Below, piece after piece: positions 8,317-28,200 of a stretch of DNA of 64,000 nucleotides. Position 1 is the stretch's first letter. Each line of letters opens with the position of its first letter. The DNA is from Bradyrhizobium sp. ORS 278 (lineage in GTDB: Bacteria; Pseudomonadota; Alphaproteobacteria; Rhizobiales; Xanthobacteraceae), in the NCBI RefSeq assembly GCF_000026145.1, contig NC_009445.1, positions 4,588,001 through 4,652,000 on the forward strand. Reading direction: 5' to 3'. A program made the position numbers and the translations under genes. The notes below the pieces were generated by a model that was given only the letters and a program-made list of their open reading frames with translations, searched no databases and was not told where the DNA came from.

Positions 8317-8583
8317 GGCGCGGCCGGCCGCCGCAAAGGTTCGCCCTGCCTCTGCGATTGTTCACATCTGACGCGCGCCGGCATCGACGCGGAGATCGGC
8401 GGTGCTGGCATGATATCGGCTCCGTCCCTTCGCGAGTTCAGGCGATTTTCGCTCGACCAAACCCCCGAGGAAGATGCTTCACCTTGACAAATCGCACATT
8501 CGGAACAAAAAAGGAACGAACGACTCGGCCGAATGCCGGGGGACCGTCGTCGACCGAGGCCGCAGGAAATCGGCGCGTATCAC

Positions 8584-10746
8584 ATGAAGCCCACCACGTT
8601 GCCGGTCTACTATTATCTCGACCACTTCGTCGAAATGCTGGAGTTCGTGGAGAGGACATATGACGAGATCCTCAGCGACGAGGACCGTGCATTCACCTCA
8701 AGCTTTCGCGGTCTTTCCAAAGACGCGCAGTGCCTCTTGATCCGCATGGTCAACCGACGTGGGACGATCTTCAACCGCGCGCTCTTCAAGTACCCGGAGA
8801 TTACGGACCTCGAGTCCGCCGCTCGAAACCTGATCGCTTGCGGATATGCCCGTGGTCTTCGTGCCGACGATTATTCCGCTTTCCTGCTCTGCCAACCGAA
8901 GACCGCTCTTCTCGACGGCGCCCGGGCGGCGGGATTCGGCCGCGATATACGCGCGTCCTGGTCGAAGCCGGCACTGGCCGACTTTTTCCTGGCAACAATT
9001 CCCTTCGATGTTGCCGCGATGCATTGCGGCGCCGTGGGCTTCATAGCCCTCGACAACACGCGGTCCATCGACTTTCTGCTGTATCTCTATTTCGGCAAGA
9101 CGGCGGACAGTCTCAAGAACTTCGCTCTGCGAGATCTCGGCGTGCTGCGCACGAACAAGGAGACGTCGTTCAGCTCTCGCTTTGTCGACGCCGACGAGGC
9201 GCATGCCTGTTTTCACTACAGCCAGGTGCTGAACCGAATCGAAGCTCGTTCCGTCGATATCTATCAGTTGGCGGTTAAGGCGATCCTCGACGGTCCGCCG
9301 CGGACGAGCGACTACGCCGCCGATCTCGCGTCTCGCGCCGCGTGTCAGGTCGGACAGTATTTCGAGAAACAGGGCGAACTGGATGTTGCCGAGCGCCTCT
9401 ATCGTTTCGGCCAGTCGGCGGACTGCCGCGAGCGCCTCGTCCGGCTGCTGTACACCCGAGGCGAGAAGGACGCCGCCGAGCTTCTGTTGCGGGAGATGAT
9501 CGACGATCCCGAAAGCGACGATGAGCACCTCTTCGCCATGGACTTCTACGCCCGCAAGTTCGGCAAGCAACGGACGGGCCTCAGCACTGCGTTGCTGCGA
9601 TCCGGGCGCTTGATCGTCGTCGACGATACGCACCGCGGTCATCCGGAAGCAGGCGTCGCCGGCGTACTGAGACGTCGGGGCGGCGACGTCTATTTCGCCG
9701 AGAATACGCTGTGGCTCACGCTGTTCGGGCTACTGTTCTGGGATGAGCTTTTCGAATCCGGCCAGCTCAACAGCCTGTTCGACTGGGTTCCGCATTGCCT
9801 TCGCGACCGGACTTTTCATCGGCGTTTCGCCGCGCAGATCGATGCGAAGCTCGCGCAGATCAAATCCGGACAGGGACTGCCCATCATCCTGCGTGTGGTC
9901 GCCTCCAAATGGGGCCGGTCCAACGGACTGTTCGCTTGGGAGCACGTGCAGATCGACGCGCTACGCGCCTTGCTCGCCTGTGCCAATGCGGACGGCTTGG
10001 CTGCGATTCTTCGGGCGATGTGCGAGGACTTCTGCGGCATGCGGGACGGCTTCCCCGACCTGATGCAGGTGCGCGACGGAAAAGTGACGTTCGTCGAGGT
10101 CAAGGCCGAGGGCGACGCCATACGCCGCAATCAGTTGACGCGTCTGCGTCAGCTGGAGCAGGCCGGCATACCGGCCGAGATCGGCCGCGTGGATTACCGC
10201 TTCGACCCGGAGCAAGACTACGTCGTCGTCGACATCGAGACCACGGGCTCCTGGTCATCGGGTGATCGCATCACCGAAATCGGAGCGGTGAAGGTCCGCA
10301 ATCATCAACTGGTCGAGCAGTGGCACTCGCTGATCAACCCGCAGCGGCCGATCCCCGCGAAGATCGTCGAACTAACCGGCATCACCAACCAGATGGTTCG
10401 GGATGCGCCCGTTTTTCACGAGATCGCCGACAGTTTCATGGCGTTCATGGGGGACGGCATCTTCGTGGCCCACAATGTGAATTTCGATTACGGATTCTTG
10501 TCGAGCGAGTTCGAGCGGCTCGAACGGCGCTTCCGCTTCCCGAAGCTGTGCACCTGCGTCGGAATGCGGCGCCGATATCCCGGGCACACATCATATGGGC
10601 TGGGAAAGCTGTGCGCGATCTACGGCATCGAGCTGGACGACCACCATCGAGCGCTCTGCGACGCTCGGGCGGCAGCCCACCTGCTGAATCTCATCAACAC
10701 GAAGCGCGTCGAAGAGGCGGAGGCTGACGCGGTTCAGGCGGCGTAG
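8584..10746 (+). CDS. FAN1-like VRR-NUC nuclease fused to a DEDDh 3'-5' exonuclease
   Basis: 720-residue protein with two nuclease modules. Residues about 1-480 resemble bacterial FAN1: an N-terminal YYLDHF/EMLEFVERTY segment and helical repeats. The VRR-NUC domain follows, with GFPDL (Asp492) and EVK (Glu505, Lys507), the PD-(D/E)xK triad used by FAN1 and Holliday-junction resolvases. From about residue 545 comes a DnaQ/PolC-epsilon-like DEDDh exonuclease: Exo I DIETTG (Asp550, Glu552), Exo II HNVNFDYGFL (Asp635), Exo III with His688 and Asp693. All metal ligands are present. FAN1 proteins cut branched or crosslinked DNA, so this is probably a repair or defence nuclease with two activities in one chain. 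ATG 8533 is an alternative start giving 737 residues; 8584 places the conserved motif at the N-terminus. It stands alone between lacI and an amidase. Confidence 0.85.
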   Translation: MKPTTLPVYYYLDHFVEMLEFVERTYDEILSDEDRAFTSSFRGLSKDAQCLLIRMVNRRGTIFNRALFKYPEITDLESAARNLIACGYARGLRADDYSAFLLCQPKTALLDGARAAGFGRDIRASWSKPALADFFLATIPFDVAAMHCGAVGFIALDNTRSIDFLLYLYFGKTADSLKNFALRDLGVLRTNKETSFSSRFVDADEAHACFHYSQVLNRIEARSVDIYQLAVKAILDGPPRTSDYAADLASRAACQVGQYFEKQGELDVAERLYRFGQSADCRERLVRLLYTRGEKDAAELLLREMIDDPESDDEHLFAMDFYARKFGKQRTGLSTALLRSGRLIVVDDTHRGHPEAGVAGVLRRRGGDVYFAENTLWLTLFGLLFWDELFESGQLNSLFDWVPHCLRDRTFHRRFAAQIDAKLAQIKSGQGLPIILRVVASKWGRSNGLFAWEHVQIDALRALLACANADGLAAILRAMCEDFCGMRDGFPDLMQVRDGKVTFVEVKAEGDAIRRNQLTRLRQLEQAGIPAEIGRVDYRFDPEQDYVVVDIETTGSWSSGDRITEIGAVKVRNHQLVEQWHSLINPQRPIPAKIVELTGITNQMVRDAPVFHEIADSFMAFMGDGIFVAHNVNFDYGFLSSEFERLERRFRFPKLCTCVGMRRRYPGHTSYGLGKLCAIYGIELDDHHRALCDARAAAHLLNLINTKRVEEAEADAVQAA

Positions 10747-25275: not shown

Positions 25276-28200
25276 TCAAACGGGCTGTCTTCGTCGCGCT
25301 CCAAACCATTTTTCGATTCGACGCACGACGACATAGAACGTCGGCGTGAACAGCAGTCCAAACAGCGTCACGCCGATCATGCCGAAGAACACGGCGGTTC
25401 CGAGCGATTGCCGCATCTCGGCGCCTGCGCCGGTGGCGATCGCGAGCGGTAGGACGCCTAAGATGAACGCGAACGATGTCATGACGATAGGACGAAGCCG
25501 CAGCCGGGCAGCGGTCGACACGGCATCGATGGTCTTGGCGCCCTGCTCTTCAGCCTGCTTCGCGAATTCCACAATCAGAATTGCATTCTTCGCAGCAAGT
25601 CCGACGAGGACGATGAGACCGATCTCCACCAGGATATTGCGATCGAGCGAGCGAAGATCGATACCGATCATTGCCGCCAGGATGCACATCGGCACGATGA
25701 GAACGACAGCCAACGGCAGCAGCCAGTTTTCGTAGAGCGCCGCCAAAAGGAGAAAGACAAACACGACGGCCAGCCCGAAGGCCACGGCGGCGGTATTGCC
25801 CGACAGCTTCTCCTGAAGGGCGATTTCAGTCCATTCAAAGCCAAATCCTTGCGACAGCGCCTTGGCGTTGATCGCCTCAAGGGTAGCGATCGCCTGTCCG
25901 GTCGAGTACCCCTTGGCAAGCTGCAGGTTTACCTCAGCGGCCGGATAAAGATTATACCTGGGAACGCGGTAGGGACCGCTTGCATCCTTGAAACGCGCGA
26001 CCGATCCGATCGGAACCATGTCACCATCGGAGTTTCTCATCCGCAGGCTACCCACGTCGGTCGTATCGATCCTGAACTCATTATCGGCCTGCGCGGTTAC
26101 CTTGTAGGTGCGCCCCAGAATGTTGAAATCGTTGATGTAGCTCGAACCCAGATAAACAGACAGCGCCTCGAAGACCCGACCGATAGGCACGCCCATGAGC
26201 TCAGCCTTGGTCCGGTCGATATCCGCGAACACCTGCGGCGTGCGATTGTTGAACAAAGTATAGGCCTGGACAATCCCCGGGCTCTGTCTCGCAGCTCCCG
26301 CGACCTGCCAGGCCGTGGCCTCCAAGGCGGGCAAGCCGCGGCCCGCCCTGTCCTGGACATATCCCTTTAACCCTCCACCGGTGCCGATGCCGGGGACCGA
26401 CGGCGGCTCGATGACCAGAGCAAACGCCTGGTTGACCGAGGCCAGCTGCTTCCTGAGATCCGCAGCGACAGCAATGGCAGGCAACGCCGCGCGCACCCGC
26501 TCCTCGAAAGGCTTCAGGGTGATGAAAATGACGCCAGCATTTGGTGCGTTGGTGAAGGTCGCGCCGTCGAAACCGGCGAAGGCGACGGCGTTCGCCACGC
26601 CCGGCCGCTTCAGTGCGATTTCGATCGCAGCCTTCACGACGGCATCGGTGCGCGCCAGCGATGATCCCGGAGGCAGCTGGATGGCAGCGATCAGGTAGCC
26701 GCGGTCCAATTGCGGGATCAGGCCAGTGGGCGTGACGGTGAGAAGCCGATAGGCAAAGCCGACGAGAACGGCGTAGCACAACAGCATGACGGCAGCGACG
26801 CGCACCAGCCTCGCGGTGAGCGAACCGAAGCCGCGGGCGATCGCGTCGAATCCTCGGTTGAACGCGTTTGCGACCGCGGTGAATGGCCGTTCCAGTCTGG
26901 CGAAACGGCCAGCCGGTTCGTGTCCGCTCTTGAGCAGGATGGCGCCAAGCGCGGGAGACAGCGTAAGCGAGACGAAGCACGAAATCAGCGTTGCCGCGGC
27001 GATCGTAATCGCGAACTGACGATAGAAGGCGCCCTGGAGGCCGAGGATGAACGCTGTGGGAACAAAGACGGCGCAGAGCACAAGGGCGATCGCCAGCAGA
27101 GCGCCCCCTACTTCATCCATTGTCCTGTGCGACGCCTCCCTCGGATCGAGACCTTCCGCAATGTAGCGCTCGATATTCTCAACAACGACGATCGCATCAT
27201 CGACCACGATTCCGATGGCGAGAACCAGTCCGAACAGCGACAGGTTATTGAAGGTCAGGCCGACTGCGCCCATCACGAGAAAGCAGCCAACAAGGGAGAC
27301 CGGAATCGCGACAACCGGTATGATCGCGGCCCTCCAGCTCTGCAGAAACACGAGGATGACGATCACGACCAGCGCGACGGCTTCAAACAGGGTCTGGACG
27401 ACCTCGTCCACGGACTTTCGGATGAACTCAGTTGGATTATAGACGACTTTGTAGTCGAGCCCGGAAGGAAAGTCTCGTTTGGCGATTTCCATCGCGGCAA
27501 ACACCGCCTTCGCGGTCGAGAGCGCATTCGAGCCGGGTCGCTGATAGACCACGATGGCGGTCGCGGCGTCGCCGTTGAGATAGGCGTTGACGGAATAGTC
27601 CTGGGCTCCGAGCTCGACACGGGCGACGTCGCGCAGCCGAAGATATCCGCCGTCCGGATCAGCCCGCAGCACGATATCCTCGAACTGCTCCGGCGACGTC
27701 AGCCTGCCGAGCGTCTCGACGGCCACCTCATAGGCACCGTCCGATCTTGCGGGCGGCTGATTGAGCGCGCCGGCGGCAACCTGCAGATTGGCGGCACGAA
27801 CGGCCGCCGTTACGTCACCAGCGGTCAGTCCGCGCGCAGCCGCGCGATCCGGGTCGACCCAGATCCGCATCGCATAGTCGCGCGCGCCGAAGATATTGAT
27901 GTTGCCGACGCCATCCACTCTGGCCAATAGATCCTTGATATAGAGTGTGGCGTAGTTCGAGATGTATTGCTGGTTTCGTGTGCCGTCCGGAGAGACAAGA
28001 TGCACCACCATCATCAGGTCGGGTGAGGCCTTCTTGACGGTGATACCAAGGCGCGTGACATCCTCCGGCAAACGCGGTGTTGCGACCGCCACCCGGTTCT
28101 GCACCAGGACCTGAGCCGTATCGATGTCCGTGCCCGGCTTGAAGACGACATTGATCGTCAGGCGTCCATCGCCGGTCGCCTGGGATCCGATATAGAGCAT

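Follow-up and report, generated by a model that had tools for sequence, protein, structure and literature searches.

To our knowledge, little is known of bacterial interstrand crosslink repair outside UvrABC-dependent excision. In humans the labour is divided between FAN1, SNM1A, HMCES and translesion polymerases; FAN1 has a 5′-phosphate pocket there and matters in repeat expansion. A bacterial counterpart, paFAN1 of Pseudomonas, is reportedly the subject of papers by Gwon (2014) and Jin (2018). The Pseudomonas enzyme is described as cutting 5′ flaps 4 and 5 bp past the branch point and as having some 5′–3′ exonuclease activity (PMC4103454), a source that also links human FAN1 to kidney disease. 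Here we analyse a gene on a 64,000-nucleotide stretch of Bradyrhizobium sp. ORS 278 (NC_009445.1, positions 4,588,001 to 4,652,000; hereafter the window), which belongs to a single-contig genome of 7,456,587 bases. Its product joins a FAN1-like VRR-NUC nuclease to a DEDDh 3′–5′ exonuclease in one chain, as the preliminary description of the locus had proposed and as profile, fold and conservation now bear out. What is new is a FAN1 to which a DEDDh exonuclease is permanently joined and whose gene stands behind a LexA-type box; the architecture itself is already visible in databases, as public protein tables show the three Pfam domains together. Judging from sequence, the gene very probably encodes an SOS-regulated repair nuclease, and on balance the best overall explanation would be an SOS-induced enzyme with unhook-and-trim action. 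The elements of the locus are as follows (window coordinates).

8503..8517, no strand assigned: LexA-type (SOS) box 66 bp ahead of the start codon; direct repeat GAAC-N7-GAAC, which reads GTTC-N7-GTTC as its reverse complement
8584..10746, + strand: FAN1-DEDDh fusion protein of 720 amino acids (aa), from open reading frame (ORF) calling, Pfam and homologue lengths
8608..8850, + strand: FAN1_HTH domain, residues 9-89 (Pfam PF21315, 4.6e-29)
8851..9606, + strand: helical middle of the FAN1 part, residues 90-341 (diverged SAP region and TPR-like helices), spanned by the fold alignment to paFAN1
9700..9702, + strand: invariant Glu373 (73/73 alignment), absent from the residues of the preliminary description, probably of the nuclease active site, a role that we assume
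9907..10191, + strand: VRR_NUC nuclease domain, residues 442-536, with D492, E505 and K507 (Pfam PF08774, 2.2e-15; paFAN1 alignment)
10198..10218, + strand: junction, residues 539-545, from the last VRR_NUC strand to the first exonuclease strand, with DP-x-Q-x-Y (73/73 alignment)
10222..10683, + strand: DEDDh 3′–5′ exonuclease domain (RNase_T), residues 547-700, with D550, E552, D635, H688 and D693

The start codon at 8584 is favoured over an alternative upstream ATG at 8533, 17 codons before it, because many close homologues are 718-720 aa long. A split or frameshifted gene in the window is ruled out by the continuous ORF, and the two halves share one frame both here and in the 73 fusions aligned below, which were picked for diversity and taken as whole proteins. 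The G+C content of the gene is 61.3%, that of the window 65.1%. In a Pfam scan of the 720-aa protein all three domains (RNase_T, FAN1_HTH and VRR_NUC) exceed the curated cut-offs, with RNase_T reaching 2.3e-34 at residues 547-700; the VRR-NUC match that the preliminary description had anticipated is therefore significant (2.2e-15). Within the helical middle, FANC_SAP was unmatched at E ≤ 1 and the TPR match was weak (0.069). Sequence alignment places residues 7-538 on paFAN1 (1.5e-40) and residues 544-700 on the PolC-type exonuclease 2p1j (9.3e-27). In the predicted model, the structural check proposed earlier, residues 4-539 fit the paFAN1 fold and residues 541-711 that of the DinG exonuclease domain. 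The model's predicted local distance difference test (pLDDT) score is low at residues 171-200 (59-65) and has block means of 94 and 96 in the junction region. E373 aligns with a Glu of paFAN1; we take it to be a member of the nuclease active site and the counterpart of human Glu834. D492, E505 and K507 correspond by alignment to paFAN1 D507, E522 and K524, residues named in PMC9635880. Three features of the FAN1 family are present (a FAN1_HTH domain, a VRR-NUC with PD-(D/E)XK residues and the whole FAN1 fold), along with those of DEDDh (DnaQ-like) exonucleases (ExoI DxE, ExoII D, ExoIII HxxxxD and the fold).

The fusion forms a stable family, with members in Bradyrhizobium, Alteromonadaceae and Verrucomicrobiales. 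Of 8000 candidates scored in a search with the window protein, 513 reached E ≤ 0.001, and all three Pfam domains occur in 118 of the 120 matches listed; with a gamma relative as query (we use gamma as shorthand for copies from the phylum's other classes, alpha for alphaproteobacterial ones) the three are found in 119 of the 120 listed of 220, and with a Verrucomicrobiales relative in 116 of the 120 listed of 237. Among the sources that are named we find Bradyrhizobium, Tardiphaga, Alteromonas, Marisediminitalea, Glaciecola, Rheinheimera and Verrucomicrobiales; the suggested survey across genomes did find the fusion in several groups, with varied neighbourhoods. The residues singled out in the preliminary description lie where it had put them, and D492, E505, K507, D550, E552, D635, H688 and D693, together with E373, are invariant in 73/73 aligned fusions; the motifs of both sites are therefore no chance matches. 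Residues 531-550 span exactly 20 positions in all 73, with DP-x-Q-x-Y largely conserved, and this fixed length implies that the exonuclease begins directly after the last VRR-NUC strand. FAN1_HTH was found in every member of a set of 61 proteins (51 fusions and ten free-standing FAN1s). FANC_SAP matches 21/21 free-standing FAN1s and 12 of those 61, which leaves 2/51 fusions; in the window protein the SAP region goes unrecognised by the profile and is covered by the paFAN1 fold alignment. In an unrooted tree of the FAN1 part, one branch with support 100/100 separates 39/39 fusions from 24/24 free-standing proteins, a split that fits one origin of the fusion, the root being unplaced in such a tree.

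GTTC-N7-GTTC is given as the LexA motif of Alphaproteobacteria (PMC8565304), and the promoter of the window gene carries it in reverse complement at 8503-8517, as would a LexA regulon member. Of 24 distinct alpha fusion loci, 23 have an alpha-type box no more than 200 bp from the start, and so do both Bradyrhizobium plasmid copies; of 255 other genes on these stretches, 6 have one. With spacers of 4, 5, 6, 8, 9 or 10 in place of N7 at most 3 of 24 alpha loci match. The same box precedes recA and lexA of the window's genome. The motif by itself is hardly above chance, with two matches in the window against 1.52 expected, and genome-wide counts of 75 + 75 against 68 + 66 for the reversed control; our argument therefore rests on the position of the box and its conservation. 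The second window match lies at 27049-27063, and two is about the number that chance would give. Gamma fusions have the exact E. coli-type box, CTGT-N8-ACAG, within 200 bp in 10/22 cases (control 2/231), as against 1/22 with N9 and none with the other spacers from 5 to 11, and free-standing FAN1s have it in 5/25 (control 1/183). Under a looser rule, drawn up after inspection of the sites, which tolerates one mismatch where the spacer is AT-rich and looks no further than 150 bp, 20/22 gamma fusions have a box against 5/234 control genes. At the single Verrucomicrobiales locus, where five patterns were tried, TGTTC-N4-GAACA stands 39 bp upstream; its frequency is about 0.001 per 300 bp on gamma fusion stretches, and free-standing stretches lack it. 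We take this motif to be the Verrucomicrobia LexA site, reportedly the topic of a paper by Erill (2016). On these matches the putative box takes the form of the host lineage.

The preliminary description had offered three functions, crosslink repair, mismatch-like proofreading and phage defence. Repair is favoured among them because the LexA-type boxes are conserved; proofreading as a Pol III epsilon subunit fell away, and defence gained no positive evidence beyond a patchy and plasmid-borne distribution. Crosslinks are somewhat more likely than not the main substrate. The order of steps that follows is more tentative. LexA cleavage after DNA damage would switch the gene on, and the FAN1 part would bind a 5′ flap, or a fork that a lesion (an interstrand crosslink, most likely) has stalled, and cut a few nucleotides inside the duplex, like paFAN1. 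This cut would leave a new 3′-OH on the released, lesion-bearing fragment. From that end the joined DEDDh exonuclease could digest the fragment 3′–5′ in the direction of the lesion, leaving a small remnant that a translesion polymerase, such as the DinB encoded next door in many relatives, might copy past. We infer this pairing of incision by one site with 3′-end trimming by the other, and with it one protein may process both DNA ends. Trimming is assigned in human cells to a separate 5′–3′ enzyme, SNM1A.

Free-standing FAN1s are followed by a same-strand helicase gene in 18 of 21 loci, or 19 of 25 once Alteromonadaceae are added; one of these helicases was typed as DEAD_2/Helicase_C_2, that is, of XPD/DinG type. 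No such helicase was found on 46 fusion stretches (30 and 16 in two scans). Genome-wide, a near-full helicase match exists in 4/6 genomes with a free-standing FAN1 (one being the query's own), in 0/18 fusion genomes and in 0/11 genomes without FAN1, while weaker C-terminal matches are common across genomes. This mutual exclusion, and an exonuclease fold nearest to that of DinG, would be expected if free-standing FAN1 were co-produced with a helicase that opens its DNA and if the DEDDh domain had replaced this helicase, exposing the substrate by digesting a 3′ end, not by unwinding. We consider such a replacement unlikely: two lineages can exclude each other without any exchange of function, exonucleases and helicases are generally not interchangeable, and six of the 25 free-standing loci (one at a contig end) have neither partner on the stretch. 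At one non-alpha locus (L092, 5299-10506) a Y-family polymerase (IMS, IMS_C, DUF4113), a free-standing FAN1 and an XPD/DinG-type helicase overlap in an apparent operon.

The preliminary description had remarked that the gene is not next to repair genes. This holds for the window, where the eight nearest large ORFs encode two transport permeases, two solute-binding proteins, a LacI-type regulator, two amidases and an ABC ATPase, but in relatives the gene often stands beside DinB, SRAP or Ku. Among 100 neighbour proteins from 22 alpha loci, the commonest Pfam family is IMS_C of Y-family polymerases (6), with HlyD at 4, Metallophos_2 at 3 and SRAP at 2 among the matches listed (25 of 77 families). 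By tblastn, DinB lies within 0.5 kb of the fusion gene in 10/25 alpha loci (divergent in L013, L015, L074, L075 and L183, convergent in L065, L070 and L071, in the same direction in L019 and L057), SRAP is on the stretch in 8/25 (partial in L019, L067 and L183; adjoining the fusion gene in L067, L068, L075 and L184) and Ku is within 6 kb in 6/25 (L013, L014, L015, L019, L020 and L075); representatives were confirmed by Pfam. Twelve whole genomes (~88 Mb) hold 45 IMS and 33 SRAP matches, fragments counted; at that density the 0.44 Mb of alpha stretches should contain ~0.2 of each. The 25 loci are related and so not independent trials, yet DinB occurs in three orientations.

In the five loci with a divergent DinB, an SOS-type box lies in the gap between both genes. 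This, and the ten adjoining DinB genes, could suggest that the DEDDh domain is an external proofreader for DinB in SOS repair, tethered to the gap by the FAN1 part. Such a role seems improbable to us, as DinB is missing from the stretch in 15 of the 25 alpha loci, alpha DinB is unmatched at gamma fusion loci, DinB is itself in pieces in L019, L057 and L183, and the protein falls far below the cut-off of Pol III epsilon. The identification as Pol III epsilon (DnaQ equivalog) was rejected at a score of 117.8 against the TIGR01406 cut-off of 222.7; a separate dnaQ of the same genome (contig C1, 216223-216894; G000:C1:216223-216894) scores 277, above it. The label 'DNA polymerase III subunit epsilon', which several sources give to the fusion proteins, is misleading.

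Some further arrangements were observed. On the Bradyrhizobium plasmid p172_1, predicted to be conjugative (L184, 5170-8151), a SRAP gene (YedK/HMCES-like) precedes the fusion on the same strand with an SOS-type box between them, an order also seen at L068. Ku, a metallophosphoesterase, DinB, the fusion and SRAP cluster in differing orders at L013 (3430-10160) and L019 (7995-14524); in the latter DinB is fragmented and SRAP incomplete. The Nitrobacter remnant L024 has kept a divergent DinB, which is fragmented too. Alteromonadaceae fusion loci (L137, L138, L142, L144, L145 and others) have a small HNH-like protein upstream, several have a short conserved protein of ~90 aa downstream, and a flavin-reductase-like protein also recurs; this neighbourhood, with names judged from translations, is possibly plain synteny.

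The fusion gene is accessory. The FAN1_HTH family occurs in 8 of 60 near genomes, all eight among the 36 of the window's genus (own genome included), in 4/385 genomes of the class and in 55/398 of the phylum. All alpha copies examined have both halves except the remnants L023 (the exonuclease end alone, its frame broken) and L024 (a piece of the FAN1 start alone). The exonuclease is missing from the gene in 30/30 gamma loci (L027-L056), RNase_T was found in 0/21 members of a second set (L066, L077-L096), and eight further copies of the phylum survey were classed by frame length alone. One family, which we take as that of Alteromonas, has both fusions and free-standing FAN1s: the gene is present in 39/118 genomes, as 33 open frames above 700 aa, five of ~550 aa and one broken. 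The fusion is also carried by two Bradyrhizobium plasmids predicted to be conjugative, in open frames of 720 and 716 aa, one of them annotated with a later start. Fusion neighbourhoods vary between strains, and one genome (G021) holds two copies (C1:5689483 and 1300038), each beside a SRAP gene, partial in one case. Four copies (L063, L074, L023 and L024) are interrupted, broken in the exonuclease frame or mere remnants, as would suit an accessory gene subject to gain and loss.

Patchy distribution, conjugative plasmids and changing neighbourhoods would also suit an anti-phage or anti-plasmid nuclease degrading foreign DNA from both ends. We regard this as very unlikely, since PADLOC matches the exonuclease half alone (within residues 544-712), the commonest Pfam among neighbours is a Y-family polymerase domain and the LexA-type boxes are conserved in site and spacing. 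Assignment to a PADLOC-DB defence protein was rejected, with no full-length match. A phage origin of the gene was rejected as well: the FAN1 half, the only one searched there, was unmatched at E 1e-5 in 50,697 phage records. That the exonuclease is a relic, an inert structural add-on to an ordinary FAN1, is scarcely credible: we found no point in its favour, and its five DEDDh residues are invariant in 73/73 fusions across three lineages.

Several observations weigh against the reading as an SOS-induced repair nuclease. The box is absent from L004 (alpha) and from L136 and L142 (gamma), and box and neighbour counts are not independent among related loci. The looser gamma rule was set after the sites were seen, and it finds a box in just 12/25 free-standing FAN1s (control 5/183). 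According to PMC12796719, PA1865, the paFAN1 gene, responds to UV-C and ciprofloxacin and is repressed by hydrogen peroxide; the same source counts PA1865 and PA1866 as damage-responsive genes that belong to none of the known LexA, Prt and Alp regulons, which speaks against LexA control of free-standing FAN1s in general. The SAP region has diverged, so that DNA binding may differ from that of paFAN1. None of the eight nearest large ORFs scanned in the window is a repair gene, ten of the 25 alpha loci, the window's included, have no DinB, SRAP or Ku at the distances above, and tblastn matched neither alpha DinB nor alpha SRAP on the gamma fusion stretches. An accessory gene, in 8 of 36 genus genomes in one sample, is moreover not a general repair route.

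We hold the repair reading nonetheless, and its interest goes beyond this locus. The fusion family offers a compact, conserved candidate in which two nucleases of opposite polarity share one chain, often with a translesion polymerase gene adjoining. Since it recurs in several lineages behind LexA-type boxes, we regard it as a promising candidate for a repair enzyme that has been overlooked. We speculate, with some doubt, that a single-chain 'unhook and trim' crosslink enzyme, its DEDDh site rigidly joined to the FAN1 part, is central to a repair set that is under SOS control, moves horizontally and may also comprise DinB, SRAP (HMCES-like) and Ku; if so, it would mirror the way in which the human proteins share these tasks, but with trimming of reversed polarity. 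Given the part of human FAN1 in kidney disease and repeat expansion, a FAN1 that naturally carries its own trimming partner could also help show the fate of the fragment that FAN1 releases. The present analysis also corrects the Pol III epsilon label of these proteins. The preliminary description knew of no biochemical study of the combination, and our literature searches agree: no paper was found combining FAN1, VRR-NUC and DnaQ, or VRR-NUC and DEDDh, and among the matches listed no title or start of an abstract concerned a FAN1-DEDDh fusion.

Compared with known systems, the fusion differs from human FAN1, given as UBZ, SAP, TPR and VRR-Nuc in the domain description of PMC9635880, where no DEDDh-type exonuclease domain is named. 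The aligned chains of paFAN1 (PDB 4r89 and 5y7g; gene PA1865 in PMC12796719) stop after VRR-NUC, whereas the fusion adds the DEDDh domain and has a SAP region that escapes the profile. Sampled free-standing FAN1s are mostly followed by the helicase (19/25) that fusion stretches lack. The nearest solved fold of the DEDDh half is DinG of Staphylococcus aureus (PDB 8zef and 9ii8), with a root-mean-square deviation of 1.4 over 169 residues and 37% identity for 9ii8. In S. aureus DinG the exonuclease is N-terminal (chain residues 2-171) and its partner, presumably a helicase, is not FAN1, whereas in the fusion the exonuclease is C-terminal. The best NCBIfam match of the DEDDh half is to the PRK07883 DEDD exonuclease proteins (NF005906); it is limited to the exonuclease half, and its 181 bits fall far short of the family cut-off of 495. 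In these proteins the partner is presumably a UvrC/Cho-like nuclease of GIY-YIG type, in which case they would be another fusion of an incision nuclease with a DnaQ-type exonuclease.

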